64,000 bases of DNA from assembly GCA_030272155.1 (NCBI GenBank), contig CP126206.1:3038001-3102000 (forward strand), written 5' to 3'. Below, piece after piece: positions 1,009-45,150 of this stretch. The notes under the pieces are model-generated. The model did no database searches, was not told the DNA's origin, and was given only the letters and a program-made list of their open reading frames with translations. The position numbers and the translations under genes are program-made. The stretch is from Tetradesmus obliquus. Taxonomy: Eukaryota > Chlorophyta > Chlorophyceae > Sphaeropleales > Scenedesmaceae. Positions within the stretch are counted from its first letter, which is position 1. Each line of letters begins with the position of its first letter.

Positions 1009-3264
1009 ATGCTTCGCTGTGTCAGGCGCCTGGTGGCGCTCCTTCTAGCCGGAAAGCAGCTGCCACAGCATGTAGCCTTCATCATGGATGGCAACAGACG
1101 GTTTGCTGACCAGCTAGGCCAAAAACGCATAGATGGACATACTCAAGGCTATAATAAGGTACATGGTTTACGAATGTGCTCACACAACCACTTTAGGCAG
1201 CACCAGCAGCCTGCAGCTGCTACAACTGCCAACATGGTCCTACAGCAGCTGCTAGCGCACCACATGCTGTACACCCACCTGTTGTTGGCCATAGATTGTG
1301 TCAGGAATTTGAATATGTGTCTCCACAATCAGAACATGCTGATGTTCAGCAATGTGTGTGAGCATATCGCTTGTCAGGTCTCGGAAGTGTTTCGGCAGCT
1401 GCCACTGCCAACCGCCTGATGGCCGTTTGCAACACACTCCATGCCTACACCAGTTAAACCAGAAGCTATCATACATGATGATTACATGTTGTATATAAGT
1501 ATTTTCAGCAGTCTCTGAAGTGCATGTGACATTGCGGCACTGCCTGGACCTTCCAGCAGCACAGCAGCATCAACCACCCCTACACTGATGCTATGGTTTG
1601 ACCGACACATTCCTGGTTTGACCAATGTTTGACTGAACCAGCCCCAGCTATTTGTCAGCTCGTGTATGTTTGACCGGTCCCTGCTGTCGAAGCAGGACGT
1701 GCAGTGGTGCTTGCAGCTGGGCGTACTAGCAAGAGCAATTATCCCTCCTCACACACACACACTGGTGCCTTGTTTGACCAAACGTACTGTTGTTTGACCA
1801 ACTCGTGACCCCGCAGATGAAGCAGATCGTGCAGTGGTGCCTGGAGCTGGGCATCAGCTGCGTGAGCGTGTACGCGTTCAGCGTCCCTACCTCAGCATCC
1901 CTCCCCACTCACGCACTGGCGCCTTGTTTGACCACCTCTGCTGTTGTTTGACCGCAGATGAAGCAGATCGTGCAGTGGTGCCTGGAGCTGGGCATCAGCT
2001 GCGTGAGCGTGTACGCGTTCAGCATCCCTATCTCAGCATCCCTCCCCACTCACGCACTGGCGCCTTGTTTGACCACCTCTGCTGTTGTTTGACCGCAGAT
2101 GAAGCAGATCGTGCAGTGGTGCCTGGAGCTGGGCATCAGCTGCGTGAGCGTGTACGCGTTCAGCATAGACAATTTCAGGCGGCCAGCAGATGAGGTGGAC
2201 GCTCTCATGGAGCTGGCGGCTGCAAAGTTTGATGAGCTAGCACATGTGAGCAATGGGGTGGTTTCAGTATGTTTCTGTTTTGCTGGCTGCTTGTTTTCAG
2301 TGTGTTTGTAGTTTGTGCTTGTTGTCTTTTTATTGTGATGTGCATTGGGATGTACGCGTTCAGCATAGACAACTTCAAGCGGCCAACAGATGAGGTGGAC
2401 GCTCTCATGGAGCTGGCGGCTGCAAAGTTTGATGAGCTGGCACATGTAAGCAATGGGGTGGTTCTCGTGCCTGTTGCGTGTTTCTGTAGTGTGCTGCCAG
2501 CCTGCATGTGATGTGTGTTCAGTTGAACTCTCGTCTGTTTTGTGTCTGGGTTGGCGCCTTCAGCATAGACAACTTCAGGCGGCCGGCAGATGAGGTGGAT
2601 GCTCTCATGGACCTGGCGGCTGCAAAGTTTGATCAGCTGGCACAAGTGAGCAATAGATATCAGTATGTTGTACTTTTGTACTTGTGTTCAATGTGGAGGA
2701 CTGGTGCATTTCCGTGTGTGTGTCCCGTCTACTGTCGTGTGCGATGTTTAGCGCATGTGGGCCATCAGCAGATGAGGTGGACGCACTGATGGAGCTGGCG
2801 GCTGCTACGTTTGATGAGCTGGCACACGTGAGTGGCTGGGTTGGCTGCATGTGATTGAAGTGTCAGAGTAAGGGCTTGCGGGCTGATGGGCAGCAGCAGA
2901 GGGACGCACTGATGGAGCTGGCGGCTGCAATGTTTGATGAGCTGGCACATGTAAGCAATAATGTCAGTCTGTTTGATGGTTTTCCAATCAAAGAGTGTCA
3001 GCATTCAAAGGCTTGAGCACAGGTGGGCCGTCAGCAGCAGAGGAGGCTGATTGATGGAGCTGGCGGCCGCATAGTTTGATGAACTGGCACGTGTGAGCGG
3101 CTGGCAGTGATGTTAAAGATTGCATTGTGTGCAGTGCGTTCCAGATGCATCTAGGTGTGTTCTCGCCACCTCAAAAGGTGGAGTATCAGAAGTACAGGTG
3201 ACTGCAATAGCAGCAGCAGCAGGTAAGGCAACAGCCGGCGTGTGTGCTTCTGACATCATTCTGC

Positions 3265-3296
<32 letters not shown>

Positions 3297-4191
3297 CAGG
3301 ATGAGGATGCCAAGCGCTGGGGGGCAGAGCTGCGTGTAGTAGGTGACCTGTCACGTGCCCCGCCAGCCATCCAGGCAGCAGCAGCACGGCTGATGCAGGG
3401 TTCTAAGGAACAGGGGCCTACACGTTCAATTGTGAACATCTGCTTCTCATACACGTGAGTGAAAGCAGTGTGTGTTGCTGTGACTGGGGTGCAAGTGACA
3501 GCAGCAGCAGCAGCAGCAGCAGCGCGGCTGATGCAGGGATCTAAAGAGCAGGGGCCAACACGCGCGGTCGTGAACATCTGCTTTTCGTACACGTGAGTGA
3601 AGCAGTGCATTATGCTGTGACTGGGGTGCAAGTGCCAGCAGCAGCAGCAGCGCGGCTGATGCAGGGTTCTAAGGAGCAGGGGCCCACATGCGCAGTCGTC
3701 AACATCTGCTTCTCATACACGAGAGTGTTGGTGTTACAGATGCTCCAGCAACAGCAGCAGCAGCAGCGGTGCGCAAGCTGTTAACATGCTGTGCTTCGTG
3801 CATGCTCATCATTTCAGCGCTGCTGGAACTTACCATGTAGGTCCAGCCAGGGGCTGCATCATGTGCTGCAGCAGGTGTTGGAATTGTAGTGCTGTGTGTA
3901 TCAATCACTGTGCTTGTTGCTTACTGCTTGTTACTCACTGCAGGTCCAGTCAGGAGCTGCAGCATGCAGTGCAGCAGGCGGCGGCTGGAGTGGCAAACTG
4001 CTCTGCTACACACTGTGTCAACACTAAGCTAAATATCCTCTGCTGCTGCTGCTGCTGCTGGTGGTGGTGGGTGCCCCGTGCAGGTCTAGTCAGGAGCTGC
4101 AGCACGAGGTGCAGCAGGCGGCGGCTGGAGTGGCGCAGTCGCAGCTGCTGTGCTACACACTGGCGCATCACTCACCCGCTGCATCCTCTGC

Positions 4192-4223
<32 letters not shown>

Positions 4224-7404: not shown

Positions 7405-9804
7405 TCACCTTGCTGTTGCTGCTGTCGCTGCTGCTGCTGACTTGAGTGTCAGTGTGGGGAAGTTCTTGCTCACAGCAAACTCGTAATGCGGCTTCAACTG
7501 CGGCCCTGCTGCTGCAGGCTTTGCTGCTGCTGCTGCTGCTTCCCCGCTAGCCCCCGCTGTGCCGTTGCTGCTGCTGCTGCTGCTGGCGGCGGTGCGTGCC
7601 AGCAGCATCACTGCTATGCCATTTGTGGCTGCGACGCGGTCCATTGCCTTCAGGTCCAGCTGCTGCTGCTGGCTGATTGAGAGGCTGCTGGGGCCCTTCA
7701 GGGCAACGCCGCATGCCTGCTGTGCCTGCAAATAGGGCAGAGGCATGACACACCACACTAAGTGTCAGTTGCATATGGTTGAAAGCTGATTGGGAGGCTG
7801 CTGGGTCCCTTCAGTGCCACACCGCACGCCTGCTGTGCCTGCACAAGGAAAACATACGGCCGTTTGTGTTATGTCCAGCCAGCTAGCAAACAATAAAGCA
7901 AAACCCTGGGATTGGTGAGGCTGATTGGGAGGCTGCTGGGGCCCTTCAGGGCCACACCACACGCCTGCTGTGCCTGCACAAGGAAAACACACGGTTGTTT
8001 ATATTAAGTGCAGCCAGCTAAAAATCAATCAAGCAAAACGCTGGGAATGTTGAGGACCTTCAATGCAACACCGCATGTGTGCTGAGCCTGCAGGCAGCAC
8101 ACAAAGCATGCAACCCGCATGCAAAACATGTCTGTCAGTAGATTGGCAGTATGATGCAAGGCTGATAAGGCCCTTGAGAGCAACACAGCATGCCGGCTGA
8201 GCCTGCAAACAAGGTGTCTTGACTTAAGCTCAATATGACGTTGACTTGACGGGCACGCCAAATCAGACATGCCCGTAAGTGCATGACACGTAACAGCAGC
8301 AGCAGCAGCGCAGTCAGCGCTCACCCGCTTGAAGGAGTCCCCTGCCAGCCTCAGCAGCTGCACCGGCTCCACCCCCTCCACACTCGTGCTCGTCACAAAC
8401 TGCCCGTACGTGAGCGGCTCGGGCCGCTGCAGCGCCTGAAACGCCGCAAAGCGCTGGTCAAACCTCTGAGCCTCACTGTTGAAGGGTAGCTCTGGGTGGT
8501 TGTATAATTCGAGCAGTGGCAGTGCCATCATGAGCCGAAGCGTGCCCATTGCTAGCTGCCGCTGAGCCTCTAAAATGAGGTTGGAGAGCAGCCACGCGGG
8601 CTTGCTGCTGCCGCTGCTGTGCGCATGAGCATCGCTGCTGCTGCTGCTGCTGTGCTTGGCGGGCTGCTGTTGCTGCTGCTGTGCTGCCTTTGCTGCTGCT
8701 GTAGCTGCCTTGGATCCTTTTGATGAAGCTTTGGAAGGCAGCTTGGCACCGCCCAAGCCAGCAGCAGCAGCAGCGGTACTGCTGCCCTTTTTGTGGGTGG
8801 GTCCTGGTGTGGTGATGAGGGCTGGCTGCTGCTCCTGCAGGTGCTTGCTGCCCTGCTGCCACACCATACCCAGCAGATCCACATACCTGCAGGCAGGGCT
8901 CAAAAGGCAGGGTTTAGAGACATACTTTGCAGTGCAGTTGATGAGATTTCAGTGCAGGGTTGTGGTGCTGCTCCTGCAGGCACTTGCTGCCCTGCTGCCA
9001 CACCATACCCAGCAGATCCACATACCTGTTACACGGTGGAAGGGTTTAGGGTGCAGGGTTTAGGGTGCTAGACAAACAAGGGTTTCTGATTTGAAGGTGC
9101 AAGGATGAGGTTCAGATGCCCTGCTGCCACACCATTGTTCTATTGCTCACCAGTAGACCATGGCGTAATCTGCTGGCTCGTACAGGCTCAGCTCGAAGCC
9201 CATCAGCAGGTGCGCCATACACCCCCAATATTTGAGACTATGAGGACTCAAAGTCAAGGTATGCTTCTATTGCTCACCAGTAGACCATGGCGTAGTCAGC
9301 TGGCTCGTACAGGCTCAGCTCAAAGCCCATCAGCAGGTGCGCCAGCATGACGCTGCACGTCTCCACCTCCACCCAAGTCGCCAAGGGGCCCTGCATGCAG
9401 AAAATAAGCAGCAAATGCACAACATATGGTTGAGCACATGGATAGCAAGAGCGTTGATGCCACATCAGTAGGTGCGCCAGCATGACGCTGCACGTCTCCA
9501 CCTCCACACAGATTTGCAGGGGGCCCTAACCATCGCATCATCAGCAAATGCACAACCAAAAAAGTTAGAAAGCGCAGATGCAGCCCGTCAGTAAGTGTCC
9601 CAGCATATTCAGACACATACACGAAATGTGGCAAACTAACAACCATAACAACTAGTAACGCACCGCAATGTCTCCGGGGTGTTCGTTGGCCCAGGTCCAG
9701 CCATGCACCACCATGTAAGCTTGGAACTGAGGGCTGTTGTCGGCGTTGAGGCCGTGCTGGTACAGGTTGCCCCAGTCCTCAAGGCCCCTGATAAGACCAA
9801 GAAA

Positions 9805-9840: not shown

Positions 9841-9924
9841 GATGGCACTGAAGTCATGTACGTGTTGTATTGTCAGCATTGAGTACTTGCTGGTACAGGT
9901 TGCCCCAATGTGCAAAGCCCCTAA

Positions 9925-9961
<37 letters not shown>

Positions 9962-11869
9962 GCAGCAGCGGCAGCAGCAGCAGCAGCAGCAAGGGCAGCA
10001 GCAGCAAGGGCAGCAGTGGCAGCAGCAGCACACATGGTTTGAAAGGCAGGTTGGTGCAAGGTTCTATGTCCAGGTGAACTGGTACAGATTCCCCAGTCCG
10101 CCTGCGGTGCACTGCGTGCCAGCAAACAGCACGCAGCGGCGGACGCGGTTTCACTGTATAGAGGGTGTTGACTTGGTTCTGGGTGGAACACGTGTTTCAG
10201 AAAACAACGGCTTTCAAACACCTTCTTATTGAAACTGTGTTGTTCCCTTACCTGCGCAGGCGGCGCCTACAGCGGCTGCGGTTCATCAGCAGGGCGTGCA
10301 CCAGGTTGCTGGCAGCGATCACGGCTGGCTCCATGAACAGCTCCCATCATCACCACCAATAAAAGGCTGCCTCATGTTCTAGCAGCAGCAAGGCACGCAG
10401 CCAACAACATGACACTCAAAACCCTACCAGAAAACCCCACCCTCTAACTTGCAACCCAAAACCCTGAACCCTACCTGCGCAGCCTGCGCCTGCAGCGGCT
10501 GCGGTTCATCAGTAGAGCCTGCACCAAGTTGCTAGCTGCAATGACCGCCTGCTCCATGAAAAGCTCCCCATCATCACCCAAGTCTGCCTCGGGATCAAGC
10601 AGCAGCGAGGCACGAAGCATGCGAGGCGACAGACACCAAACTGGCACCACAGGACTGCTGCTGCTGCTGCTGCTGCTGCCGCGCGGTGCTGCTGCTGATG
10701 CTGGTGGTGGTGGTGTGCCGTTGGCTGGGTCCGCTGCTGCTGCTTCTGCAGCTGCTGCTGCTCCAGGTGGGTGGCTGGGGGTGGGTATGTGGTGCTGGTG
10801 GTGCTTGGCATCATAGCTGCCATCATCTGCTGCTGCTGCTGCTGAGCCGCCTTGCTGCTGCTGCTGCTGAGATGGCTGCTGCTGCTGCTGGCTGACTTGC
10901 GGCACCCATGCGTTGTACGACACCTGCAGCAGCAGTTGCGGAAAATGCGCATTGTGGGGTGCAGCCTTCTCAAACCAAACTTCTAACTGATATGTTGCAC
11001 CGTGCTGCAGTAACCCTGCTTAAAAATAACACGCGACACGCCTGAAAGAGCATGATGCGGATATAAACATCCCTTGCGAGTTCTTGCAAGTTCTACTCTC
11101 GAGTAGCTAGTATCATGCCGTAGCAAACGCCTGATTCGTACCGAAATCAATGAGCGGACTCAAAGAGCAGAAGACTGCAATGACCGCTGAATGATCAACC
11201 AAGCGTGTCATGTTAACCCTGCGGCAGACTCACCTGGGCGTGCATTGCTGCGCGTGACGTGACGCAAAGTTCATCGGGTAGTGTTGACCTTGATCCTGAT
11301 CCTATTCTTTATCGTGGACCTATTGTTTATCCTGATCCTGACCCTGACCCTGACCCTGACCCTGATCCTGATCCTGATCCTGATCCTGATCCTGATCCTG
11401 ATCCTGATCCTGATCCTGATCGTGCTCACCTGGATGTGCATCGCTGAGCGTGATGTGGCGCAGGTAGGCTGGGCCGCAAAGTCCGTCAGGTAGTCCTTCA
11501 GGGCGCGGTAGCTGCAGGGTTGAAATGAAACATGATTCAGGGTTTAGGTCAGCGTTCAGGGTTGGGGGCTAAGGTTCAGAATGCGGATCAGCAGAAGGCA
11601 GTCAGCAAGACACAGTTGTAGGTCGGCGATTAAAAGGTTGACTGCACATGACAGTGCTTCCATGCTTGGCAGGACGAGGCTGCTGTGGCAGCGGGTGCAG
11701 TGCGGGGCTGCAACACCCATGTTACATGTTACATAACATGTCATGTGACATGCCCTCACCTGTTCACGCTGGTGATGTGTGCCACGCGCAGCAGCTGGGC
11801 GGTGAGCGACTCAAAGTAGTCGACAGCCTCCTCGGCAGTGTACACCTGATGATTATTTGTGAGCGCAGC

Positions 11870-11916: not shown

Positions 11917-13499
11917 GATGACACCATGTTCAGTGACAGATGCTGAGCGGTCAGTGGCTCAAAGTAGTCCACAGCCTCCTCAGCAGTGTTGTTGTGTTAC
12001 CAGGGAGCGGCAGCAGCAGCAGCAGCAGCAACTGCACCAAATCTGAAGCTCAAAAGAACAAGGTGACAACATGATAACATGGTAACAGTGCAACATAGTT
12101 ACAAAGCGCACCTTGACTGTGCGTGGCGGCACTGCAGGCACCAGGTGGCTGTTCATGTCCTCCTGCCAGCCCAGGCCCTGGTGAGCGGCCCCCAGTGACA
12201 GGCTGGCCCGGATGTTAGACAGCTCAGCCTGCACAGAAATACAACAACACAGATGTAACATGGTAACAACCTGATGGTGGGGCACCCCAAGTACCAGGCT
12301 GGCCCTTATGTTGTACGGCTCAGCTAACAAGGATTGAGAATCCTAACTGAAACAGCATGACTGGTCAGTGAGACAGCAGCAGCTTGTTTCTTCCCACCCA
12401 CCAGGCACGCTCTTAAAAGCCTACTACTGTTACTCTTGCGACCCTTCAAGATGTGCAGTACACAGTCACCTGCACTTTTAGCAGCAGCTTTGCAACTTGG
12501 CCTAAGCCTTGTCCCCAACCGCCATGCAACGCATATCAAAAGCATTGGATATGTGTGAGATGTGTTAACAAGAAAAGTCACCTGTGCCTTCAGCAGCAGC
12601 TTGGCCGCCTGGTGCAGGTCCTGCTTCTGACAGCGCTTGAAAACGAACCCAAGCGATGCCCAGTGCTGTAGCCAATTCAAACATGATCATGCTTTTGTGG
12701 CAAAATCACCTGTGCCTTCAGCAGCAGCTTTGCCGCCTGGTCCAGGTCCTGCTTCTGGCGGCGCTTGATGCGGATGAGCGCCTGCAGCAGCAGCCGGCGG
12801 AACTGCAGCCGAGACACGACTGCTGCTGCTGCCGCTGCTGCTGCTGCTGCTGCTGCTGCCGCACCATCGGAGCCTGCTTGCGCCTTGTGCTGCTTCATGG
12901 ACAGGTCCTGTAGGGTAAAGTGACAGGGAAAGCATTATGCAGCAAGGGACATACTTCAGGCCAGCAATGTGTCAACAAGTGTTACGTGGCAGGGATGCAG
13001 TGTCTTTTGGCTGCACATAAAACTGCCGCTTCCAAGAAATGCAACGTTTGTTGGTGAAGCACATGTCTCCTGCCTGCTGCTGCTGCTGCTGCTGCTGCTG
13101 TGGCACCTAGGAACTGGCACCACTGCCATGCCGCCCTCCTGATTCCAATCCTGAATCTTCACTCACCTGGGAGTGTTCACCTGGGAGCGTTCCAATCCTG
13201 AACTCACCTGGGAGTCGACCGCCTGACTGAGCGCTGCCAGCAGCTTGTCAGTGGCAGCAGCAGCATCCCCAGGCTTGCCGCTGCTGCTGCTGCCGGGGAT
13301 TGGTGTGGGGCTGCTGGCCCCTGATGCTGCTGCTGCTGCTGCTGTGACAGCAAACTCTAGGGGCAGGCCTGCAATGTGTGCGTTGAAGTCTTCTTCCTGC
13401 AGCAGCAGCAGCAGCAGCAGCAATGTGTGCGTTGAAGTCTTCTTCCTGCAGCAGCAGCAGCAGCAGCAGCAGCAATGTGTGCGTTGAAGTCTTCTTCCT

Positions 13500-13725: not shown

Positions 13726-15800
13726 TGTGTGCGTTGAAGTCTTCTTCCTGCAGCCACCATCAGCAGCAAGCGCCTCAGTGGCACGGCCGCCGTGCAGGCT
13801 GCACTCGCCTTGTTGAAACCTGATGACAAACTGCACACAACCAGACTGGTGGCTGTTCCTGTATACACGCTAGTATTGCAAGCCTCTGCTGCACGTTTGA
13901 TAGACACAACCCATCAGTTGGTACAAAAAGGCCTGGGCAAAAAGCACGCGGGACAGCTGCCGCACCTCACACACGCAGCCGGTCATGACCAGGTGGTTCA
14001 CTTCTGCGCACAGCGCCTCAGTGGCCCGGCAGTACGAGGATAGCACCTGGTTGGAGGCAGTCCTGCGGCAGCAGCAGTAGCAGCAGCAGCAGCGGCAGCA
14101 GCAGAGGCATCTTAGGCAGAAGCTCATATGATCTTTGATTTGTCTGCTGTCATTGCTGTCCTTCCTAGCTGCTTGTTGCAAGTTCTTTTTGCATGTATTC
14201 GTATGTTGATCGAGGTGAGTATCAGAATTGTGAGGGCTAGTGGTGTACACCACTGGTGCAAATGCAGGTACTCATCTCGCGGGCTGCATCATGTACATGC
14301 TGCTGTAAGGTGTGCTTTCCAGGCTGCCCCCCTTGTGCCAAGTCGCTTCCAGGTACACCATGCGGTCAATCTGACTGGTTGTTATTGCTGATGTACTACT
14401 GCTCCTACCTCGCGGGCTGCATCATGTACATGCTGTACAGCCTCCTTGCCAGCCCGCCCCCCATCGTGCCATGTTAACAACACTACTTGCTCCCAGGAAC
14501 AGCAGGTGGCCCATCACCCCTAGCAGCTGGTCGTCTTATATTGCGTTTTTGCTTCAATTCTTGACCAATGTTGTACTGATTCTGCACCAGAACGAACAGC
14601 AGTATTCCTTACCTGGCAGGCTGCACCATGTACATGCTGCTGTAGAGCGTGCGAGCCAGGCTGCCCCCATTGCGCCAAGTCACTTCCAGGCACACCATGG
14701 GGTCAATCTGACTGCAGTACTGGTTGTTATTGCTGATGTACTACTGCTCCTACCTCGCGGGCTGCATCATGTACATGCTATACAGCCTCCTTGCCAGCCC
14801 GCCCCCCATCGTGCCATGTTGCTTCAAGGCACAGCAGGTGGTCAAACTGATTGCAACACAACTTCTATCACTGATTTTGTGCTGCTCTCACCTCGCGGGC
14901 TGCATCATGTACATGCTGCTGTAGAGGGTCCGTGCCAGGCTGCCACCGTTGTGCCAGGTTGCTTCAAGGCACAGCAGGTGGTCCATCACGCCTAGCAGCT
15001 GCTGTGGTGACAGCTCCAGCTGCATTGGGCGCTGCTCAAGTGGGGTACTGTCACCTTTGGGGCGCGCTCCTGCAGACAAACCACACACGAGGGCGGCAGT
15101 AAAAAACAGCAGTTTGGTCAGTTGCTGCTACTGCAGGGCACAGTGTATGCTGATCTAGGTGTGGGCGTGGGGTGGGTTGCTCATATTGGTGTTTCCATGT
15201 TTAGGTAGAAGTTTGAGTTCCCTTAGCAGAGGCAGAGGCGAGAGTAGCTGCATTGGGCGCTGCTGCAATGGGGTGGTGTCCCCCTTTGGGCGCGCCCCTG
15301 TGTTTGAATTACATCAAAGTTATCAGAATGTTTCAAAGTGGCAGTTTAAAGCAATCCAAGGCAGCAGATGGTGCGGGGTTGCTGCAGTGACTGCTGCTGC
15401 TATGATGCTGTATGCACACGCAGGGAAGGGGGAGGGGGAGGCAAGTGGGTGGGAGTACACTGGTGTTGGGATTAGCAGCACTGCACACGCTTGCTGTTGC
15501 TGCTGCTGCCAGCCCCAGAGAGCCAAATTGCAATGTAGCCGCTACAGTGCAAGACGTAAGTGATTGGCTGTAATGCCAGCATGCACGCTGCCAGCCTGGC
15601 ACAGCAGCAGCAGCGGTAGCAGCAGCAGCAGCAGCAGCAGGGCCCCCACCTGTATCCATCTTGGGGTTGCCGATCTCCACTGCACTCATGGCTTCGAAGA
15701 GGCTGAACACCGAGGTATGCAGCAGCTGCCCGACATTGAGCTCGCTGGAAGCCGCATCCAGCAGCGCAGACACGCTGACCCAGTCCACATTGGGATCCAT
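7405..15800 (-). CDS. NAA35: N-alpha-acetyltransferase 35, NatC auxiliary subunit (Mak10 family)
   Basis: Auxiliary subunit that helps anchor the NatC N-terminal acetyltransferase at the ribosome, with NAA30 as catalytic partner. Thirteen exons on the minus strand: 15800-15650, 15069-14892, 14062-13966, 13396-13208, 12907-12710, 12228-12112, 11845-11760, 11511-11430, 10923-10475, 9787-9664, 9390-9278, 8886-8325, 7725-7405. All phases agree, giving 888 aa (human about 725). Family landmarks in order: LFEAMSAVEIGNPKMDTG, QQLLGVMDHLLCLEATWH, EEDFNAHI, VDYFESLTAQLLRVAHI, RSRCRRRLRRGLEDW, LATWVEVETC, MGFELSLYEPADYAMVYW, RFDQRFAAFQAL and the C-terminal HYEFAVSKNFPTLTLK. The extra length is poly-Ala, Gln and Ser inserts. 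An in-frame stop upstream of 15800 supports that start. Introns carry many exon decoys. Confidence 0.93.
7790..8205 (-). repeat. Decoy heads of NAA35 exon 13
   Basis: Four copies of the first about 50 bases of exon 13 (encoding variants of AQQACGVALKGPSSLSI) lie upstream of the real exon, ending near 7790, 7918, 8040 and 8155. Each is preceded by a CTGCAG- or CTCAG-type acceptor on the minus strand. Divergence rises with distance from the real exon at 7725. Confidence 0.85.
8966..9525 (-). repeat. Decoy copies of NAA35 exons 11 and 12
   Basis: A head copy of exon 12 (YVDLLGMVWQQGSK) lies at about 9026-8969, upstream of exon 12. A tail copy of exon 11 (FELSLYEPADYAMVYW plus GTGAGC donor) lies at about 9211-9150, downstream of exon 11. 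A head copy of exon 11 (VEVETCSVMLAHLLM) lies at about 9525-9470, upstream of it. Confidence 0.85.
9875..10340 (-). repeat. Decoy copies of NAA35 exons 9 and 10
   Basis: Head copies of exon 10 (the DWGNLYQ segment) occur near 9920-9875 and 10110-10070, upstream of exon 10 and separated by CAG tracts. A tail copy of exon 9 (about 10340-10252), ending in a CAG/GTAAGG donor, lies downstream of exon 9. Confidence 0.8.
11296..11421 (-). repeat. Hexanucleotide array (CCTGAT/CCTGAC) in NAA35 intron 8
   Basis: About 90 bases (11331-11421) are nearly perfect CCTGAT or CCTGAC repeats on the plus strand, with imperfect copies leading in from 11296. The array starts 9 bases from the intron's donor at 11429. 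Confidence 0.9.
11930..12655 (-). repeat. Decoy copies of NAA35 exons 5, 6 and 7
   Basis: One head copy of exon 7 (TAEEAVDYFE) lies at about 11995-11930, upstream of exon 7. One head copy of exon 6 (about 12326-12275, IRASLVLG) lies upstream of exon 6. Two tail copies of exon 5 (12651-12583 and 12530-12470, encoding AAKLLLKAQ or VAKLLLKVQ, each followed by a GTGACT donor) lie downstream of exon 5. Confidence 0.85.
13372..13752 (-). repeat. Seven-copy array of the NAA35 exon 4 start, joined by CTG tracts
   Basis: The 24-base start of exon 4 (encoding EEDFNAHI), preceded by CTGCAG, occurs seven times. Plus-strand starts of the shared block are 13372, 13421, 13473, 13528, 13595, 13647 and 13723. 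Spacers are pure (CTG)n of varied length, two with a single interruption. Only the copy at 13396 continues into the exon. Confidence 0.95.
14265..14850 (-). repeat. Decoy tails of NAA35 exon 2
   Basis: Four copies of the exon 2 tail (encoding SLARTLYSSMYMMQPAR variants, then a GTGAG or GTAGG donor) lie downstream of the real exon, with donor ends near 14270, 14408, 14613 and 14752. A head copy lies upstream at about 15295-15245, and a copy of part of exon 3 at about 13815-13760. Confidence 0.88.
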
Positions 15801-17828: not shown

Positions 17829-20698
17829 GTGGCGGCAGTTCTGTGGAGGGCTGAGTGACAGCGGCCACCAGTGGCAGCAGCTGCCTGGCTGTGTCATGGC
17901 AAAACTCGAGTGGCAGCAGAACGGTTGTAAGCGGGCCGTTTTTACAAGCGTTCGTTACACCAAACATGACCGTTTTATGCCACCTAGAAACACGCACCAG
18001 CGGAAGCATATGCTGAGGATCACACCAAACATGAGTGCTGAGCCAGCAGCTGGCAGGCATAAGGCAGCAGCGACTGCAAAAGCGGTTGCAAATGAGGCTG
18101 CAGTGCTTCCTACACCTGGAAGCTTTCCATCGAAAGAGGCAGGTGCAATGCATGCATACTTGATGAGCATATTGTACATTACAATAATGTTTAAGACAGC
18201 AAACAGGCTGCAGCAGCTGCTGCAGCAAAGGATGTTGCAAAAGGCTGCCAACAACCTACTGCCCCACCCTGGGGCTTCGCAAGCGGGCTCCATCAGTAGC
18301 AACAAACAGGCAGCAGCGGCAGCACCTGCTGCAAAGGGTGTTAAAAATCAAAAATACCACTTCCCTTACCTGGGGGTTTTTGCCCGGCTTCCACCACACC
18401 GGCTGCTGGTCCGATGAGCCGATCTGAGGCACCAGGAAATTCACGTCATATCCCCTGTAGGGCAGGCAGTTCACATCATACTTGATACTTCACAGTTGAT
18501 AGTTCACAGTTCATAGTTCATGGTTCACATCATATCCCCTGCTCGGCAGGCAACAGCAGCAGCAGGGTTGGTCACAACCCTGACAAAACAGACCAGCGTT
18601 GCGCTGTAACTAAAATATTGATAACATGTAATTTGCAACTGGCATGCCTCCAATGGCGCCTCCTATGGCGCCTGCTAGCCTTTGCAGCAGTCTCAGCTGA
18701 TGTACTGACCTCTAATTACGCCTATTGCTTGCAGCAGACTCAGCTGATGTTCTGACCTCTAATCACGCCCATTGCTTGCAGCAGGCTCACCTGAGCGACC
18801 GGTTGGCCCCTGCAGGTGGTGGACGGATTACAGTGCCCGCAAGAATGACAAGGAAGGCGTCGTTGCTGACAGCATGCTGTACTAGTACATAGTGTAGTAC
18901 ATAGTGTAGTACTACAATCGTTGCCGTCGGCTGCCATCAGCTGCCCGCTGCTTGTAGCCTATCTTCCTGTCAGTTGGTATGTCACCACAACTGTGTGCAT
19001 CCCGCGCCCCAAGTATCTGCCTTTACTTAACAAATCTGCAAACTCACCTGTGTTGCCCTCCATCAGCTGCCTGCAGCTGTAGCCTACCACCTTGCCATGT
19101 GTAGCAAATCCAAAGCATGTGTAGCAAATTCAAAGAGATTTGGTGCTCAAGGGTGTGCAGTGTGTTCCACGGTGCTCACTCTCCTTTTCTGGTCTCAGAC
19201 CTGTGTTCAACCTGTTGTACAATTGTGCCACATGTGGCTCATACCATCCAATATGGTGCCAGGACCCACATGTAACTATCCTCTCTCAAAGCAGTAACTC
19301 ACCTCTGCGACCCGCCATCAGCTGCTTGCAGCTTGTATCCAACTTTGCGCCCGTTTGTGAAATCGTATGGCGTGCCTTTGACACGGAAAATCTGCCCCGT
19401 GGGCAGCAGCTCCCCCGGAGCATTTGGAGTGTAGAAGTTGCTGGGAATCTTCACAACCTGGAGCACAAGACACCAGAAGAGCACCCACACTTGATGATAC
19501 CTGCATCGGATATGTCCCAGCTTTGTGACAGTCAACTTTATGTATGTGTGGCAATTAACTTTGCTCTGCTGCACCGCTTATAACACATTTGGTCAAGATG
19601 TGGGATGCGCTCTCAAGCCTCTGGTCAACGCCTGGTCAAACTTGGTCAACGCCTGGTCAAACTCACGTAATCCAGCACGCTGCTGTCGCTTGCAGCTCCC
19701 TTCAGGTTGAAGTAGGCGTGGTTGATGACGTTCAGGGGCGTGGCCTTGTCCGTCATCGCCTGCATGCACAGTTACATCCATGTGTCACTTTGTTACATAA
19801 CAGAGTGTTTAATGTATAGAGGTTTCAGGACGTTGAGGGGTGTGGCCTTGTCAGTCATCACCTGCATGCACAAATTGTGTTATTTTGTTACACAGGAAGC
19901 TGGCGAAGGCGCCGAGTGTTGATCACGCTAACAAGCCTGTGTGTAGCAGCGCACCTGCATGGTGACGTTGAGGTGGCTGCCTTCCTCGGGTATGCTGTAC
20001 ATCATGTAAGTCATTGGAAGCTGCATCGCTCTGGTAGCATGTACATCATTTTAGCCATTGAGATGTAGCCTTGAACCTAGTTGATAGTAACACGCGCACC
20101 TGCATGGTGACGTTGAGGTGGCTGCCTTGCTCTGGGATGCTGTACATGACCATCACACGCACGTTGCCGGGGAACCTGCATGCAGCACGCCACGTCGCAA
20201 GTATATGGGTGGCTTGCGTCACAGCACGCCGCGTTGGTTGTTGGCAGAGATGTTACCGTCAGTTGCATGCAAGCAAGCTATTGATACATCCAAGACCGTT
20301 ACAGTAGATACATGCCACCATGCGACACTGCTGCGTGGCCTTGCGAGCTGGGGCAATGTGTGTTGCATGAAGACATATAAGCACGTACATGGCAATGGCT
20401 GTATACCAGCTGCTGATGTCCAGTGCCTGCACTCTGCTGCTGCACGTGAGATGTCAGAGAACTCCAGCTGGAATGAAATTGAAGTAGCAAGTAGCATTTG
20501 TGTGAGGGAGTGCTTCCAGACAAGGTGGCAAGAAAAATTGTCAACACCACTGCAGCCGCCAACATGTTATCAGAAGAAGCAAGCAGTGCAGCGTCACGCA
20601 CCCTGCCTCGCCTTCGTTGGATGTGCGCATAAATGTTGCGGTCAGTTTGTCAGAGCTGACGCTGGCGCTCCACATCACCTTGCTCCAGCGCACCTGAC

Positions 20699-28992: not shown

Positions 28993-31698
28993 ATCAATTA
29001 AGCAGACATAATGCAACACAACTTCAGAATATCACAGCTGGCAGAAGGTGTTTCCTGCAAGCCAGGCTGTGCAGCAAACAAGCCTTTAACTGCGTGCAAA
29101 CAGCAGCCACATGATCTGCAATACTCAGCAGCAAATGCAGAGGATATGCGTCTACAGCCAACAGCATGGATGCCTGAAGTGGGATGTGAGAACCGACACT
29201 TTCATAACATGCAGTGCACCACATGCCACAGCTGCAAGCAGCGCTACTGCTCTGGCAGTGCACCTGACCCATATGTGTGACTATGCACTGCCTCACACCT
29301 TTAGGCTGCCCTTGAAGTGTGACCGTATGAGTGAGTGAAACCACGCCTCCACTGTGTCATACTTCCGCGCATCAGCAGCCCAGTCAGCGCCAGCTGCTGC
29401 TGCTGCTGCTGCTGTGCTGCTGCCGTTCAGCGCATCAGGCTGCTGCTGCTGATGCAGCTGCTGGTCCGGGCCACTGGCATCTGTTACTGCTGCTGCTGCT
29501 GCTGCTGCTGGCTGGTGGCTAGTTGCCACCTTGTGTAGGTGCTTGAGCCAGCGTACGCCAGCAGCACAGTGAGAGATCTCCTCCTGCAAATGTGTGAGAG
29601 AACAATCAGCAGCAGATTGACAGTACGTAGATCCTGCGCAAGTGCATCAGCAGTATCTGAAACATGTTACGGCGCACATACATAGACACTGCACCACCCG
29701 GCAGCCAACAGCAGCACATGCACAGCAGAGCAGCAGCAACGGCAGGACACGCCATGCCAAGACCACAAGCTACTCACCGCATAAAAAACATCCCACAGCA
29801 GCGCTGCTGTCTCCTCATCTCCATTGCCCCTGAACTTTGCCACTGTGCCCGGCAGCACATCAAGCCACCACCAGACGGCAGACAGCAACCAACAGACAGC
29901 CATGCAAATCTGCATCATGTCTGTTGTGCTGCTCACCGCGTAAATGACATCCCACAGCAGCGCTGCTGTCTCTTCATCCCCATTGCCCCTGAACTTTGCC
30001 ACTGTCCCAGGCAGCACATCCAGCCCGCGCGCCTCATGCACGCAGTGCTCGACCGCTAGTCGTGCTGGCAGGCTGTGCGCAGTGGCAGACGCAGACTCCC
30101 ACAACCTAAAGCGCAGCAGGCATCAGCGCAACAGACAGTAGCATGAGGGCAGTGCAGAAACCACACATGCTAGCCTGCAGTGAGTCTGAGCTGAAATTTC
30201 AAGTGCTGACTTTTTGGATGAACTTCATCCCTGTACCACCCGGCAGGCCTGACTTGTTCAAAACCATCAGGATATCGCATGTAACACCAGCTACTCAACG
30301 TGACTCACCCGTCGTGTCCTGGCAGTGCAACATTTGAAGAGCCGATGGCCTCCAGCCGCTCAGCACTTAGTACAGCCACGCAACCTTGCAGGAGCCTTGC
30401 AGGAGCCTTGCAGGAGCCTTGCAGGAACCACACTGATTGGTATCAATCGCACCCCTCATTGCTTTTCGCAAGCTCACCCGTCGTGTGCCGGCAGTGCACC
30501 ATATGCAGAGCCAATGGCCTCCAGCCGCTCCGCACTCAATGCAGCAAAGGCAACCTTGCAGGAGCCTTGCAGGAACCACACTGATCGGAATCCAACCACA
30601 CCCAACCATTGCTGTTTGTAAGCTCACCCGTCGTGTGCCGTCAGTGCGCCGTAGTGGGAGCCGATGGCCTCCAGCCGCACTCAGTGCAGCCAGCACATGC
30701 CTGAGCAGCGCCGAGGCTACCGTAACTAGCTTACCCATCGTGTGCTTGCAGTGCCCCGTATGCGGAGCCACCCATCTGCAGCAGGCGATCGGCACTGCAT
30801 GCGGCCATGAGTCCAATCAGCGCTTGCTGACGCCCAGTTCCCAAACCGCCCAGCGAGATTGATATGTGTCATTCCTATTCGTCAACTCACCCGTCATGTG
30901 CTGGCAGTGCGCCGTAGTGGGAGCCTATGGCCTCCAGCCGCTCAGCCAGGCTGCAGAAGTGGGAGCACTCCTCGGCAGCAACCTGCGGCACATATGAAAA
31001 GACATGGTGATGCACACCAGCCATGTGATCAGTGAATAAACGCCTGACAATAGACAAATTGGTGTCCTGCTACACTCAGCCAGGCTGCAGAAGTGGGAGC
31101 ACTCCTCGGCAGCAACCTGCGGCATAAAGTAAGCACGGAACCTGTGGGCCAAGGGACGGTGATGCAAGAGAGCCACATGGTCACTGAGTAACCCCATGCC
31201 AACAAGCTGCTCCAAGCGCCTTCAACTGACCCGAGCATGTGCAGCAGCAAGCAGAAGATGGCAGTAGTGCACTGCTTGCCATCTTCAGTGCACTACCGCC
31301 ATCTTCTGCCTCTGTTCAGATGTTTCAACTTAAGCATCTTGAAGGGTGCATACCTGTACGAAGTCATCGAAGAAATCCCGAGGCAGCTGGTAGCTGGGGT
31401 CGCTGCCAAAGCGAGCGATGATGTCCCAGGACAGATCAACTGCCCAGGACTCGATGTGCTGCATGGTAGCAGCAGAGGCAGCAGCAGCAGCAGCACCGGC
31501 AGCAGCAGCGGCAGCACAAGTCATGCTCACAGCAAGGATGTCCCAGAACAGGTCCACCGCCCAGCTCTCAATGTGCTGCAAGATAGCAGCAGCAGCAGCA
31601 GCAGCAGCACCGGCAGCAGCAGCGGCAGCACAAGTCATGCTCACAGCAAGGATGTCCCAGGACAGGTCCACCGCCCAGGACTCGATGTGCTGCAAGAT

Positions 31699-31746
<48 letters not shown>

Positions 31747-33402
31747 TGTCACCATAACAGCAAGGATGTCCCAAGACAGGTCTACTGCCCACGACTCAAT
31801 CGCTGCATGGCAGAACTTGCGGGCAGGAGCAGCAGCTATCATCACGACAAGAAACGTAGCATAGGTCCACCTCCCAGTTTTCAGTGTGCAACGGCGCTGG
31901 GCGAGAGACTTCTACGGAGCTGTTTCAGCTGCCCAATGAAAGTGAACCTCAGTTGTCACAATGACCGTCACATGTCACAGTGACCGTCACATTCGAATAC
32001 TTTGCAGGACAGCTCACCACGAGGCTGTGCAGCAGCGCCTGCCTTGAAGCCAGCGTGCCTCCCTTGCCTAGCTTTGGCATGTCCCTCGGGGCCACCAGCT
32101 TCACCTGCACGTTACATGACAGCATGTGACACGGTGTTGAGGGTGTAAGCATGTTACATGGCATGGTGTTGTCATACCATGACATGTAACATGCAACACT
32201 TGCATGTTGCATGTCATGGTATGACAACACATTACAACAGACAGACATTGTTGCCAGCGTGCCTGCCTTGGCCAGCTTTGGCATGTCCCTGGAGGCCACC
32301 AGCTTCACCTGCACGTTACATGTAGTGTTCACATGTAACGTGAACTAGCATCAACTTGTTACTTGTGCACAACATTCACAGCACACAATACAGTTATAGA
32401 TGCCTGGCCCCTCGCTAAGCCTGTAGCACCCGCCTGCTTACCACACTGGTCTGCACAACCTTGGACACGCCTGGCGCCCTCCATCAGTCAACTCTGCACA
32501 TGCTATATCCTTGCTGCTTCACATCTTCAGCCAGCACTAAGCTGCCGCCTTGCCAACGCCTTTTATACGCCTCTCGAACACCAACAAGCACTGGACATGA
32601 ACACGTCAACGTGAAGTTTGACTTACAGCCACCCACCTTGTCATCGAGCCGGTGTGGGCGATCTGGTGCTGCTGCTGACTCAGCCGGCCCAGCACTGACC
32701 TGGCTGATGTCTCCGCTGCGCCACAGCACTACTGCCTGCAGCACAAATTGTGAAATGCATCAGAGCCACATCAAAAAGCAAGCAGTTTCGCCCCACAGCT
32801 GTACCTGCTGCCAGTGCTGCTACTGCTGTTGTTGAAGGGGCGTGCATCTGTAAGACCAATGCAACGCGGCATCAGTTGCACCTGCATCGACGAAATAGCG
32901 GCTGCTGTGCTGCTGACGCTGGCGGCGGCGGTTGTGTGCTGGAGCTAAAACTGCAGCCGCTGCTGCTGTTGCCTTTTTGCTGCTGCTGCTGCTGGTGCTG
33001 CTGCTGCTGCCTCACCCTGTGAGTGAACTCTGCCTTCTGCCAGGGGTCACCTGCAACACAGCAGCATCAGTATCAGCCACAGCTTGATGGATATAAACCA
33101 TGTGTATACTTGCAAGCGGTGTTGGTCTGTGTTCACCACCAGCAGCAATCCCATTCACATAGAACTGTTGCTGCTGGCTGCACCCACTGCTGGGCAACAG
33201 AAGCGCCTTCCAGCCGGCTTGGAGATGGCGGCCACAAACTAAAATACAGCAATAGAGTAGGGGCTTCAACTGTGTCATTTGCTGCCTCAGACTTGTTTTG
33301 TCAGAGGGGCTGGCAGCGCCAGCAGCAGTTGCACAACTCACCCACTCGCAGCACCTTCAGTGCTGCTCCCACCAGTGTGTCGCCTGGCTCTGGGGCACTC
33401 AT
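28772..33402 (-). CDS. DUF455 ferritin-like (putative di-iron) protein
   Basis: Exons (minus): 33402-33342, 33050-33016, 32735-32637, 32104-32018, 31458-31354, 30982-30891, 30105-29937, 29583-29299, 28936-28772. Phases agree, giving 365 aa. The DUF455 order is clear: MPKLGKGGTLASRQALLHSL, HIESWAVDLSWDI, LPRDFFDDF, VAAEECSHF, LPAHDGLWE, EHCVHEARGLDV, EEISHCAAGVRW, FHSLIRSHFKGSLK, PPFNEAARKMAGF and EWYLPL. The four Glu/His sets (HIE, EExxH, E..HE, EExxH) fit a four-helix carboxylate di-iron or ferritin-like fold. The reaction of this family is not established. The last exon was found only by splicing, since its frame has few ATGs. A low-complexity Ala/Gln insert sits between HLHKVA and DTVEAWF. 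It shares a divergent promoter region with the next gene. Confidence 0.92.
29777..30780 (-). repeat. Decoy tails of DUF455 exons
   Basis: A tail copy of the exon 30105-29937 (LDVLPGTVAKF to LLWDVFYA, then GTGAGT) lies at about 29862-29777. Several tail copies of the exon 30982-30891 (LEAIGSHYGALTAHDG variants, then GTGAGC or GTGAGT) lie between 30300 and 30780. An 11-12-base repeat (CCTTGCAGGAG) occurs about four times at 30385-30424. Confidence 0.85.
31075..31806 (-). repeat. Decoy heads of DUF455 exons
   Basis: A head copy of the exon at 30982 (VAAEECSHFCSLAE) lies near 31120-31075. Three head copies of the exon at 31458 (ESWAVDLSWDILAV variants) lie near 31576-31530, 31691-31645 and 31806-31758, each after a GCAG acceptor and separated by (CTG)n on the gene strand. 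A head copy of the exon at 32104 lies at about 32312-32255. Confidence 0.88.
31251..31309. repeat. Inverted repeat, 24-bp arms
   Basis: Arms 31251-31274 and 31286-31309 are complementary with one mismatch and an 11-base spacer. It sits in the DUF455 intron between exons at 31354 and 30982. Confidence 0.85.
32166..32230. repeat. Long hairpin, 31-bp stem and 3-base loop
   Basis: Arms 32166-32196 and 32200-32230 are complementary over 31 bases with a single mismatch. It sits within a DUF455 intron and is surrounded by further GTTACATG/CATGTAAC-like words. Confidence 0.92.
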
Positions 33403-38072: not shown

Positions 38073-38156
<84 letters not shown>

Positions 38157-40305: not shown

Positions 40306-43300
40306 ACTGCTACTGCAGACAAGCCGGCTGGCTGAGGAGCAGGCCGCAGCAGCTGCTGCGGCAGCGGCAGCAGCCAAAGAGGCCCTGCAAGCCAAGCAGG
40401 CAGCACACCAGGCAGCGCAGGCTGACCTAGACAGCAAAGTGCAGGCGGCGACAGCCCCGGCAGTGGGGCAGAGGCAGCAGCTGCTGCAGCAGCAGGGGGA
40501 CTTGCAGGTAGGCACGGCCGTTGTTCGCGGTTTTTCGCATGTTGAGGTGTACGGGTTTCGAGTATGGGGCTGACAAGCACCAGCAGCTGCTGCGGCAGCG
40601 GCAGCAGCCAAAGAGGCCCTGCAAGCCAAGCAGGCAGCACACCAGGCAGCGCAGGCTGACCTAGACAGCAAAGTGCAGGCGGCGACAGCCCCGGCAGTGG
40701 AGCAGAGGCAGCAGCTGCTGCAGCAGCAGGGGGACTTGCAGGTAGGCACGGCGGTTGTTCGAAGTTTTTCGCATGTTGAGGTGTAAGGGTTTTGAGTATG
40801 GGGCTGACAAGCAGCAGCAGGTGTTGCAGCAGCATCATCAGCCAAAGAGGCCCTGCAAGCCAAGCAGGCAGCACACCAGGCAGCGCAGGCTGACCTAGAC
40901 AGCAAAGTGCAGGCGGCGACAGCCCCGGCAGTGGAGCAGAAGCAGCAGCTGCTGCAGCAGCAGAAGGACTTGCAGGTAGGCACAATAAACATTTGTAACT
41001 TTTGCGCGTTTTGAGAGCATGATTATTATTTGGGGGGATGATGAGAAGCAGCTGTTGCAGCAGCAGAACAAATACCTGCCGCCAGGAGGCAATTGTGGTG
41101 CTGCGCATAATCAGACTCATCACGGGCTTCGTGCCCAGCTGATCTAGCACATGGCAACGTTACACAGGGCAAGCACCAGCACATTTCATCGTCAATATTT
41201 GTGCCTGCCGCTGCACCGCTGGGGCCGGCGCATTACGTGCATACTTCCCTTCAACATATTGTCGTGCGTGCTTTCTGGCCTTTGCTGCTCCTCTTGTGCT
41301 GCCACTGCACCTGCAGGAGGGGGCGCATGCGCTGGCTCTGAGGGAGCAGCACACACAACAACATGATCATTGCATCAAATTTTTGCTCTGGTAACACTGC
41401 CGCTTGTAATGTTGCGCTTGCAGACAGAGGTGGATGCTCTGCGTGCGCGGCTGGCGCTGAAGGAGCAGCAGCTGGCAGCACAACATGCATGCACCATGCT
41501 TGCTTACTTGTTAGTTTCCACGAATATGTGCGCTACTGCCGCTGCGCTTGCAGGCGGAGGTTGACGCGCTACGCGCGCAGCTGGCGCTGAAGGAGCAGCA
41601 GCTGGCAGCGGCAGCGGCGGCAGTGGCGGCTGCTGATGACGAGATCGTGAGTAGGACCTTGCTGCTAGATAGATAGAGGGGTTACATGGTGCGTTCTTGC
41701 GGCATACGCCACCACCAACAACAGTTCAGATAGGAATCAGCATAGAGCTCAACACGGGCCGGCCCTCAAAGAGGCCCAACCCCTGGACCTTGCTGCTGTG
41801 TCTGGCTGGAATTCAGTGTGCTTGCATTTGTAGCTGTGGCGGGCAACAAACATGCAACTAACGCTTGCCCCACTTCAGCAAAAGTTGTGTTGCTTAAGTC
41901 ATTCATCACCGAGATTGCTGCTGCTGGTGCTGCTGGTGCTTCCGCCAGGCCTCGATGTCCTCTCAGTATGCCAGCGAGGAGGCTGACCTGGCAGGCCAGG
42001 CTGCTGATGTGGCAGCAGCAGCTGCTGACCTGGCAGCTGCTGAGTCAGCATCTGCTGAGCTGGCAGCTGCTGCTGAGGCCGCCAGGTCAGCGCTGCAGGA
42101 GCAGCAAGTGGCGCTGCAGCAAGAGGTGAGTGCAGGTGGTAGCACAACGTGGCAACTGCGGGTTTCAGCTCTCTTGAGAGTGTGCGGGGACAATCGAATG
42201 ACCAGGTGCTGCGTTGTATGTGAAAATGCAATGCGGGCGTGTACTGGCAGACCAGGCTGCTGATAGTAGCAGCTGCTGACCTGGCAGCAGACCGTCAACC
42301 TCAATCATCGTACTAAACCACGGCACCCTTGAATCATCACCGCAGGTGTCGCAGCTGGCGCAGTGGTCACAGGAGCGCGCGGATGCAGCAGCCGCTGCCG
42401 CTGCCTCTGTGGCTGCGGAGCGTGCCGCGCAGCAGCTGCTGGTGGGCCTGAAAGCAGCTGATGCTGAAGCGCAGGAGAAGCTGCAGGACTTATGCAAGTG
42501 CATTGACGATGCAGCAGCGCAAGTACAGGAGGCCGAAGTGCAGCGCGCCCGACTGGCGGCCGACAAAGCGGCAGCAGATGACAGGGCAGTGGCGGCTGCC
42601 GCGCGCCTGCCGGAGGTTGAGGCTGAAAAGAAGGCGGCAGCGGCAAAGAAGGTACGCTGTGGGCTGACCGTATGTCGTCGTGTTGTGCCTGTTCCTCGCA
42701 ACCCATGCCGCCACACGCCTGCCAGAGGTCAAAGATGAGAGGATGGCGGCAGCAGCAGCGGCAGCAGCAGCAGCAGCAGCAGGACTTGAACAAGGCAGTG
42801 AGGCTCTCAGCAGAGGCGAAGGCGCCACCAGTGATCTTGAATCCTCTGTTCTGACTGTGGCAATGCTGTTCTGCAGGACTTCAAGGAAGCAGCGGGGCTC
42901 TCAGCAGCGGCAACACCTGCTGCCGCCGCGTTGACCCGTGCTGCATTGACTGAAGTTTGTCTGGTCAATGCTGCTGCTCTGACTGCTGCGGATTTGCAGG
43001 ACTTCAAGGAAGCAGCTAGGCTGTCAGCCAAAGCCAAACGCTGGCAGTAGCAGCTCAAGCAGCAGCAGATGAGGCCGCCAGCTTGTCAGGCCGCCTTCCT
43101 CTGTTGCGACTTGTGATCTCACAAATCGTGCTGCATTGTCTGCAAATGCGCTTTGCAGGACTTCAAGGAAGCAGCACGGCTCTCAGCTGAAGCCAAGGCG
43201 CTGGCAGTGGCAGCCCAGGCAGCAGCAGACGAGGCCGCAAGCTTGTCAGGCCGCCTGGCGGCCATCACAGCACAGCAGGCCGGGCAGCAAGCGGAGCTGC

Positions 43301-44560: not shown

Positions 44561-44611
<51 letters not shown>

Positions 44612-45028
44612 TGCAGGCTGACCTGGCTGCTGAGCAGGCTGCTGCTGATGCGCTGGCCGCAAAGTGGGGCGGCTTCAGTGAGCAGGAGCGGCACGTGGAG
44701 GGGCTGCCGGCAGCAGAAAGTTCAGCAGCGGGGGATGCAGCAGCAGCACTGGATGAAGCAGCAGTAGCAGCAGCAGAGACGGCGCCACGTGATGATGCAG
44801 CAGCAGCAGCAGCAGCAGCAGTAGCAGCAGATGCTGGTAATGCTGCAGAAGGGCAGGCGCAAGCAGAGGGTGCTGAGTTTGACGATGCAGCAGAACATCA
44901 GCAGGAAGGAATGGAGCCGGAAGCAGCAGCAGCAGCAGCGGCAGCAGCAACACCAGTGATTAGTGCAGTCACTGGCGTAGTGTTAGATGATGAAGGCGTC
45001 AGCGCAGCAGGGTCCCACAAATCATCAT

Positions 45029-45098
<70 letters not shown>

Positions 45099-45150
45099 TG
45101 CTGCAGAGGGTGATGATGATGCGGCTGTAGATGAAGCAAGCCCGCCTTGA
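33853..45150 (+). CDS. Large Ala/Gln-rich coiled-coil protein with a UVR-like motif
   Basis: Exons supported by phase: 33853-34030, 34422-34485, 34730-34827, 35551-35677, 36070-38220, 38515-38740, 39434-39541, 39802-39945, 40030-40116, 40319-40507, 41554-41646, 41949-42125, 42346-42651, 43159-43323, 43862-43984, 44617-45150, about 1589 aa. The N-terminal 190 residues are ordered (MLKNIFEKKRKD, ADALLQKAQVCITRLRML, LDELQGDLNGMTQRIL). A 717-residue exon of Ala/Ser/Gln-rich sequence follows, with about 27 consecutive Gln. Then comes coiled coil, starting with AAVEAEDFEAAAAIDEQL, which resembles a UvrB/UvrC-type UVR motif. The acidic, Ala-rich tail ends DEASPP. The start has a good context (ACCACC before ATG). 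The family is unknown; a scaffold or tether role is only a guess. A possible extra exon at about 44166-44249 (KPRITLNKTKRPAPS) does not fit the phase. Confidence 0.75.
38075..38155 (+). repeat. CAG tract coding about 27 Gln
   Basis: Uninterrupted CAG codons inside the large exon of the coiled-coil gene, translated as poly-Gln. Another run at 37617-37680 is read as poly-Ala. Confidence 0.95.
38890..39210 (+). repeat. Decoy tails of the UVR-like exon
   Basis: Two tail copies of the exon 38515-38740 lie downstream, near 38890-38971 (with a changed frame) and 39112-39210 (RPGLEAKQAAAVEADDFEAA), the second followed by a GTGCAT donor-like site. Confidence 0.85.
40575..40977 (+). repeat. Two near-identical tail copies of a coiled-coil exon
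   Basis: The last about 170 bases of the exon 40319-40507 recur at 40575-40742 and 40810-40977 with very few changes, each with the GTAGGC donor. The high identity suggests recent duplication or gene conversion. Confidence 0.92.
41311..44114 (+). repeat. Further decoy copies of coiled-coil exons
   Basis: Head copies of the exon at 41554 lie near 41311-41360 and 41432-41490 (EVDALRARLALKEQQLAA). Head copies of the exon at 43159 (DFKEAARLSAEAKA) lie near 42777, 42876 and 42998, and a tail copy lies near 43465-43530. Head copies of the exon at 43862 lie at 43629 and 43742, and a tail copy at 44078-44114. Confidence 0.85.

Follow-up and report, generated by a model that had tools for sequence, protein, structure and literature searches.

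Partial copies of exon edges in introns of Tetradesmus obliquus as probable products of tandem duplication across splice junctions

How introns grow longer without the help of mobile elements is the question raised by a 64,000-nucleotide stretch of the green alga Tetradesmus obliquus (contig CP126206.1, positions 3038001-3102000; hereafter the window). Its introns carry partial copies of neighbouring exon edges, and these copies follow a side rule: the 5' part of an exon recurs upstream of the functional exon and the 3' part downstream of it. We consider it probable that tandem duplications of about 85-160 bp, which span intron-exon junctions, have lengthened the introns and left these partial copies behind, and this explanation offers a concrete answer to the question.

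The genome searched comprised 104,662,953 bases in 17 contigs. Gene-finder models in the window were checked by PDB and Pfam searches, and four genes were identified by homology: a cis-prenyltransferase (DHDDS-like) on the plus strand, and NAA35, aldose 1-epimerase and a DUF455 protein gene on the minus strand. Pfam returned no match for the parts tested of a gene located at 23-28 kb, nor for those at the end of another at 41-48 kb. Gene identity here means homology, exon edges were taken from the gene finder or set by eye, and the alignments cover only part of the exons. Outside the window, chaperonin genes were located by a genome search with PF00118; eight intron-rich genes were taken, seven of which are in the curated set.

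Exon-edge copies in the window and elsewhere in the genome

When the window was compared with itself, pairs less than 3 kb apart comprised 109 direct repeats and no inverted ones. These data, together with the copies found in the four homology-anchored genes, bear out the original prediction that introns of this region contain partial copies of neighbouring exon edges. The clearest case is the prenyltransferase exon 2099-2245, which is preceded by three copies of its 5' edge and followed by five copies of its 3' edge (Table 1). Edge copies were seen at 13 of the 18 curated window exons, every one on the side that the rule predicts. The prediction had spoken of seven genes and about 30 exons; four genes were anchored and the exact count was not reproduced.

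The curated set consisted of 72 exons, 18 from the four window genes and 54 from seven chaperonin genes elsewhere. Partial copies adjoin 50 of these exons, with 5'-edge copies upstream of 35 and 3'-edge copies downstream of 34. We counted 123 edge matches (58 of a 5' edge upstream, 65 of a 3' edge downstream) and none on the wrong side, a 123:0 ratio that is not blind, since the exons were picked after the repeat matches were known. Five internal and three whole-exon matches were also present. The predicted side rule thus holds in the window and in the seven chaperonin genes as well. Left out of the set were locus L032 in its entirety, window exons with ambiguous edges (13208-13396, 17304-17492, 31354-31802, 31972-32104, 29299-29489, 28772-28936 and the prenyltransferase exon near 3300), exons with ambiguous edges elsewhere (L029 8623-8767; L030 5442-5782; L033 4212-4514; L035 449-629, 4074-4262 and 5264-5545) and other, mostly shorter, predicted exons.

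To sample the genome, we took 20 loci of 10 kb each from fixed, arbitrarily chosen positions that covered all 17 contigs. Among repeat pairs no more than 1 kb apart, these loci had 135 direct and 5 inverted ones, so that short-range copies in direct orientation prevail, as in small tandem duplications of the break-repair type. Such direct pairs were present in 16 of the 20 loci, and their spacing had a mode at 110-150 bp with a smaller rise near 240-250 bp. As the chaperonin genes and the arbitrary loci both indicate, the phenomenon extends beyond the window; it is genome-wide and not universal.

Uncurated counts were based on gene-finder exons of at least 30 bp. For copies outside predicted exons, the window gave a right-to-wrong-side ratio of 23:2 and the 20 arbitrary loci one of 19:6. 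When copies lying within predicted exons were also admitted, a mode in which one pair can count in both directions, the ratios were 49:15 and 100:55, accompanied by 23 and 172 whole-exon matches (195 in total) and by 7 and 58 internal ones. This noise presumably arises because the gene finder calls many copies exons and because some loci hold coding tandem repeats. As a replicate, two tRNA-synthetase genes were analyzed after the side rule had been written down. They yielded five right-side, no wrong-side and three internal matches, and three of the five partner copies are themselves predicted exons.

Anatomy and codon differences of the copies

A typical near copy comprises 35-73 bp of exon edge (10th-90th percentile). 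The functional exon edge is 85-159 bp away from 53 of the 123 copies and farther from the remainder. Arrays of whole units, intron part included, were detected at 1811-2166 of the window (99% matches) and also in loci L030 and L031. When we scored the intron parts of 12 hand-picked window pairs, seven exceeded at least 298 of 300 shuffles and five of those seven exceeded every mispaired control. Taken together, the whole-unit arrays and the residual intron homology suggest that at least part of the class arose by duplication of whole units, the intron parts of which then diverged. It had also been proposed that the copies nearest the exon tend to be most alike. This holds as a tendency only: among the 30 edges with at least two copies, the nearest copy beats the farthest in 21 (sign test, p=0.04).

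The copied junctions are junctions of existing introns, and the splice dinucleotide is intact in 107 of the 123 copies (p=0.008 compared with a neutral guess of 0.78). A partner splice site lay no more than 9 bp from the inner end in 4 of 58 5' copies (9% in control windows) and in 13 of 65 3' copies (11% in control windows), the latter being a slight excess. Recursive splicing and AGGT-type intron gain were considered and rejected, as no general motif was apparent at the copy ends by eye or in the inner-end splice-site test, AGGT itself being uncounted.

Comparison of copies and exons by codon gave 346 synonymous differences, 172 nonsynonymous differences and 3 stops in 2261 codons (81 codons with multiple differences were set aside), and the trinucleotide-matched expectation was 177, 337 and 7. 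These raw counts overstate the synonymous bias because a single exon change enters them as many times as there are copies. We therefore prefer a deduplicated count, in which each variant is scored once per edge. It yielded 274 synonymous and 164 nonsynonymous differences (stops included), which corresponds to a synonymous share of 0.626 (bootstrap 0.57-0.69 over edges, 0.53-0.67 over nine gene sets). Edges with a single copy (n=39) gave 95 synonymous and 45 nonsynonymous differences. If the copy were unconstrained and the exon constrained, our own arithmetic suggests a share of about 0.49, as calculated from a context-matched share of 0.32-0.37 and an exon-lineage ratio of 28:5 with equal neutral rates assumed on both sides; by similar arithmetic, the excess would vanish if the synonymous rate of the exon were three times as high. 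Changes private to non-farthest copies are free of the equal-rate assumption and require that copy order equals age. They comprised 45 synonymous and 26 nonsynonymous changes and 1 stop, compared with context-matched values of 26, 44 and 1.

The synonymous share drops with distance from the exon (138:51, 110:60 and 98:64, not deduplicated; p=0.04). The exon part had 27 indels in 7071 bp and the alignable intron part had 284 in 8155 bp, a comparison that is somewhat biased by alignments ending at indels. In the replicate, 12 synonymous and 11 nonsynonymous differences, 1 stop and 4 multiple differences were counted. Constraint is uneven among genes: loci L029, L031 and L033 and the minus-strand window genes gave a synonymous to nonsynonymous ratio of 285:112 (not deduplicated). 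The copies of some genes evolve differently from dead sequence.

Origin of the copies and competing explanations

The origin by tandem duplication across splice junctions, which the original prediction had put forward, is supported by the direct short-range repeats, the side rule and the whole-unit arrays. According to this explanation, short tandem duplications of about 85-160 bp would recur in genes of this genome. A duplication across an intron-exon junction would leave the mRNA unchanged, with splicing including only the copy attached to the exon body. The other copy, an exon edge with its splice site, would remain intronic and the intron would be longer; repeated events would give rise to arrays. 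Such a duplication would do no harm, since the splicing machinery could still recognise the copy that adjoins the exon body, and the side rule would follow from survival alone, with no targeting needed. Staggered breaks or paired nicks, repaired by fill-in and end-joining, may be the source of the duplications; the unit size and direct orientation are compatible with fill-in and joining at staggered breaks. The side rule, the direct orientation, the unit size, the genome spread and, in a subset, the diverged intron-part homology are direct observations.

The partial coding constraint calls for an additional element. We tentatively infer that sequence exchange between copies and exon continues. 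Where direct repeats are separated by a few tens of bp, they may contract onto or convert the functional edge, and copies carrying amino-acid-changing or frame-breaking mutations would partly be removed by selection on the exon that they re-entered. As exchange brings copy sequence back into the exon, selection on the exon would reach the copy, and although we put this forward with reservation, such exchange seems the best explanation of the partial coding constraint. The distance trend of the synonymous share, the intact splice dinucleotides (107/123) and four-gamete incompatibility that rises with distance (5/24, 14/40, 17/40; p=0.10) point weakly to such exchange. More tentative still is the wider proposal that introns in this lineage are engines of junction-spanning duplication, the truncated copies of which are under second-order purifying selection and are kept translatable though never translated. 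If it were true, each copy would be a mutational hazard, since repeats contract onto the exon or convert it, and the process would provide a mechanism for the long introns of such algae as well as a type of intronic sequence that is conserved yet has no function of its own.

A number of observations do not fit these proposals well. Similarity stops within 20 bp of the splice site in 67 of the 123 matches, so that plain neutral serial duplication is an incomplete description; an intron match of at most 20 bp was seen in 42% of the 53 near and in 64% of the 70 far matches. This short intron extent is unlike what random breakpoints and neutral decay predict, and 5 of the 12 pairs tested showed no clear intron homology. 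The ambiguous exons L030 5442-5782 and L033 4212-4514 (sense coordinates) have wrong-side hits at face value; there, the predicted start is itself copy-like. The replicate had edge copies at only 2 of 14 exons, with a third exon showing internal matches only, and no edge copies were detected at the 7 exons tested of the tRNA-synthetase gene L038. As to constraint, the other six gene sets, the replicate included, gave a ratio of 73:75 (not deduplicated), as expected without constraint; after deduplication and with the replicate omitted, the two groups of gene sets stood at 224:106 and 50:58. Moreover, 24 of the 27 exon-part indels in copies break the frame, and four-gamete incompatibility was present in 36 of 104 site pairs, compared with a mean of 61.6 under free reassortment.

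Alternatively, exon-edge fragments might have been inserted separately, by template switching, by templated insertion in break repair or as filler with long target duplication, the spacers being native or filler. Many copies indeed end at the splice consensus, where 93-100% exon identity stands beside a spacer that is not alignable gap-free, and in several arrays the outermost copy shares the consensus only. However, separate insertion leaves the outer end at the splice site unexplained, and it is at odds with the spacer homology still recognisable in 7 of 12 pairs, with the whole-unit arrays and with the fairly narrow spacing. We regard this scenario as unlikely in general, although it may apply to some of the copies. 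Lower still is the probability that the copies serve as alternative or decoy exon edges, either to control splicing or to yield alternative products. The high proportion of intact splice dinucleotides and the partial synonymous bias would be in line with such a use, but partner sites at the inner end hardly exceed the control level (a slight excess for 3' copies), and the copies also occur in housekeeping chaperonins, for which truncated products would scarcely be useful. With frame-breaking indels and mostly no second splice site, the copies are unlikely to be translated exons.

The many introns affected and the short spacer units might suggest introner-like, intron-making mobile elements. 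However, the copies are local exon sequence, and when two spacer-bearing stretches were searched genome-wide, no spacer relatives elsewhere were among the best matches listed; for one of the stretches, only a dispersed repeat and CAG repeats were matched. An origin from introners or other mobile elements was rejected because no dispersed near-identical intron family appeared for these two stretches among the best matches listed, and we consider it highly improbable. The same holds for an assembly artefact. Near-identical arrays such as 1811-2166 could raise this suspicion, but the copies range from identical to more than 20% diverged, have distinct spacers, obey a biological rule and are spread over many contigs.

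Tandem exon duplication for alternative splicing repeats whole exons in introns. Here, it is the edges that are repeated (123 edge and 3 whole-exon matches in the curated set), and with whole exons in only 3 of 131 curated matches the pattern is not that of duplicated mutually exclusive or cassette exons. Junction-spanning duplication is closer to intron gain by tandem duplication, as established for Drosophila (PMC2891723) and potato (PMC4974935), where a duplicated gene segment is likewise tolerated or used via splicing. In the potato case, an intron-exon stretch was duplicated, and an intron of this gene also contains a duplication of 83 bp (PMC4974935). That model makes new introns from exon, whereas here existing junctions duplicate and existing introns lengthen at many places, with no need for an AGGT pair. 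Small tandem duplications by break-end fill-in have been measured in mouse embryonic stem cells in which breaks were induced (PMC8355091). They are alike in being short, direct and independent of a mobile element; in our case such events are putative and are deduced from natural arrays. Long introns in green algae are shared with relatives of Chlamydomonas, where the six species of Table 2 in PMC8226300 have medians of 198-343 bp and the cause is left open there. A non-functional copy can be selected via gene conversion in a system in which haplotype diversity is favoured (PMC3924837), unlike the purifying selection and putative exchange considered here. When the open-licence literature was searched, no report of intronic exon-edge copies of this pattern was among the results listed. 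The component processes are known; their scale, the side rule and the constraint look new. Annotation errors are to be expected where such copies abound, for the simple gene finder called many of them exons, and if exchange does keep the copies in check, conservation within introns need not imply function.

Features of the window and further observations

Table 1. Functional exons, exon-edge copies and arrays in the window
Feature	Position	Strand	Remarks
Prenyltransferase (DHDDS-like), functional exon	2099..2245	+	joined to exon starting near 3300; DHDDS alignment spans both exons
5'-edge copy of exon 2099-2245	1958..2025	+	68 bp identical; offset -141
5'-edge copy of exon 2099-2245	1817..1882	+	66 bp identical; offset -282
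5'-edge copy of exon 2099-2245, older	1687..1722	+	offset -412
3'-edge copy of exon 2099-2245	2350..2445	+	with donor; offset +200
3'-edge copy of exon 2099-2245	2554..2645	+	with donor; offset +400
3'-edge copy of exon 2099-2245	2765..2827	+	offset +582
3'-edge copy of exon 2099-2245	2887..2950	+	offset +705
3'-edge copy of exon 2099-2245	3025..3092	+	in-frame stop; offset +847
NAA35 exon	8325..8886	-	5'-edge copy about 139 bp upstream (near 8956-9028)
NAA35 exon	9278..9390	-	5'-edge copy near 9463-9556; 3'-edge copy near 9138-9217 (67 exon bp, 3 mismatches)
NAA35 exon	9664..9777	-	5'-edge copy upstream near 9870-9959
NAA35 exon	11430..11511	-	3'-edge copy 196 bp downstream
NAA35 exon	11760..11845	-	5'-edge copy upstream near 11942-12039
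NAA35 exon	12710..12781	-	3'-edge copy 12574-12640
NAA35 exon	14892..15019	-	four 3'-edge copies downstream (about 14271 to 14843)
Aldose 1-epimerase exon	19303..19457	-	3'-edge copy near 19041-19087
Aldose 1-epimerase exon	19667..19759	-	5'-edge copy near 19829-19892
Aldose 1-epimerase exon	20100..20175	-	3'-edge copy 19949-20002
Two arrays, predicted gene without assigned identity	24111..25009	-	126-bp and 111-bp units
DUF455 exon	29937..30072	-	3'-edge copy 29769-29866
DUF455 exon	30891..30982	-	5'-edge copy 31075-31124 (42 exon bp identical); 3'-edge copies near 30607-30678, 30456-30533, 30303-30364
DUF455 array	31414..31836	-	units of about 114 bp with next exon's 5' edge; outside curated counts
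DUF455 exon	31972..32104	-	5'-edge copy 32253-32322; outside curated counts

Rfam gave no window match at the gathering threshold, and the genome search returned 52 matches for the chlorophyll a/b-binding family, which marks a photosynthetic eukaryote. Telomere-like spacer repeats were rejected as a general feature, there being one window match and an occurrence in one of 38 loci. In that locus (L029), the telomere-like CCCTAAACCC is found in spacers at 4421-4430, 4721-4730 and 9342-9351; the other 37 loci have none. Locus L036 has, at about 4240-4824 (sense coordinates, reverse of the retrieved strand), a run of five 5'-edge copies in which two types of sequence take turns, a higher-order duplication of a two-unit segment of about 237 bp.

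Other repeats of the window are of different kinds. Three direct copies with 83-90% identity (47770-48037, 53146-53426 and 56943-57227) lie in a lower-GC stretch and are probably a dispersed or mobile element; the gene finder predicts no gene at 47.9-58.4 kb, and short-range direct repeats were absent from 50-60 kb in the self-comparison. An inverted pair with 87% identity, the members of which are far apart (19133-19290 and 55000-55139), probably represents two copies of a single element. A dispersed repeat with many matches elsewhere in the genome is located in an aldose 1-epimerase intron at about 20235-20308. At 40347-40983, a 234-bp unit (a multiple of three) is present in 2.7 copies with 96% matches within a predicted coiled-coil-like gene, and this array is perhaps an in-frame protein repeat and not an intron array. 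Finally, long CAG/GCA/CTG triplet repeats occur in predicted exons and introns at many places of the window (for example 20699-20794 and 38074-38155) and reach 32 perfect units.

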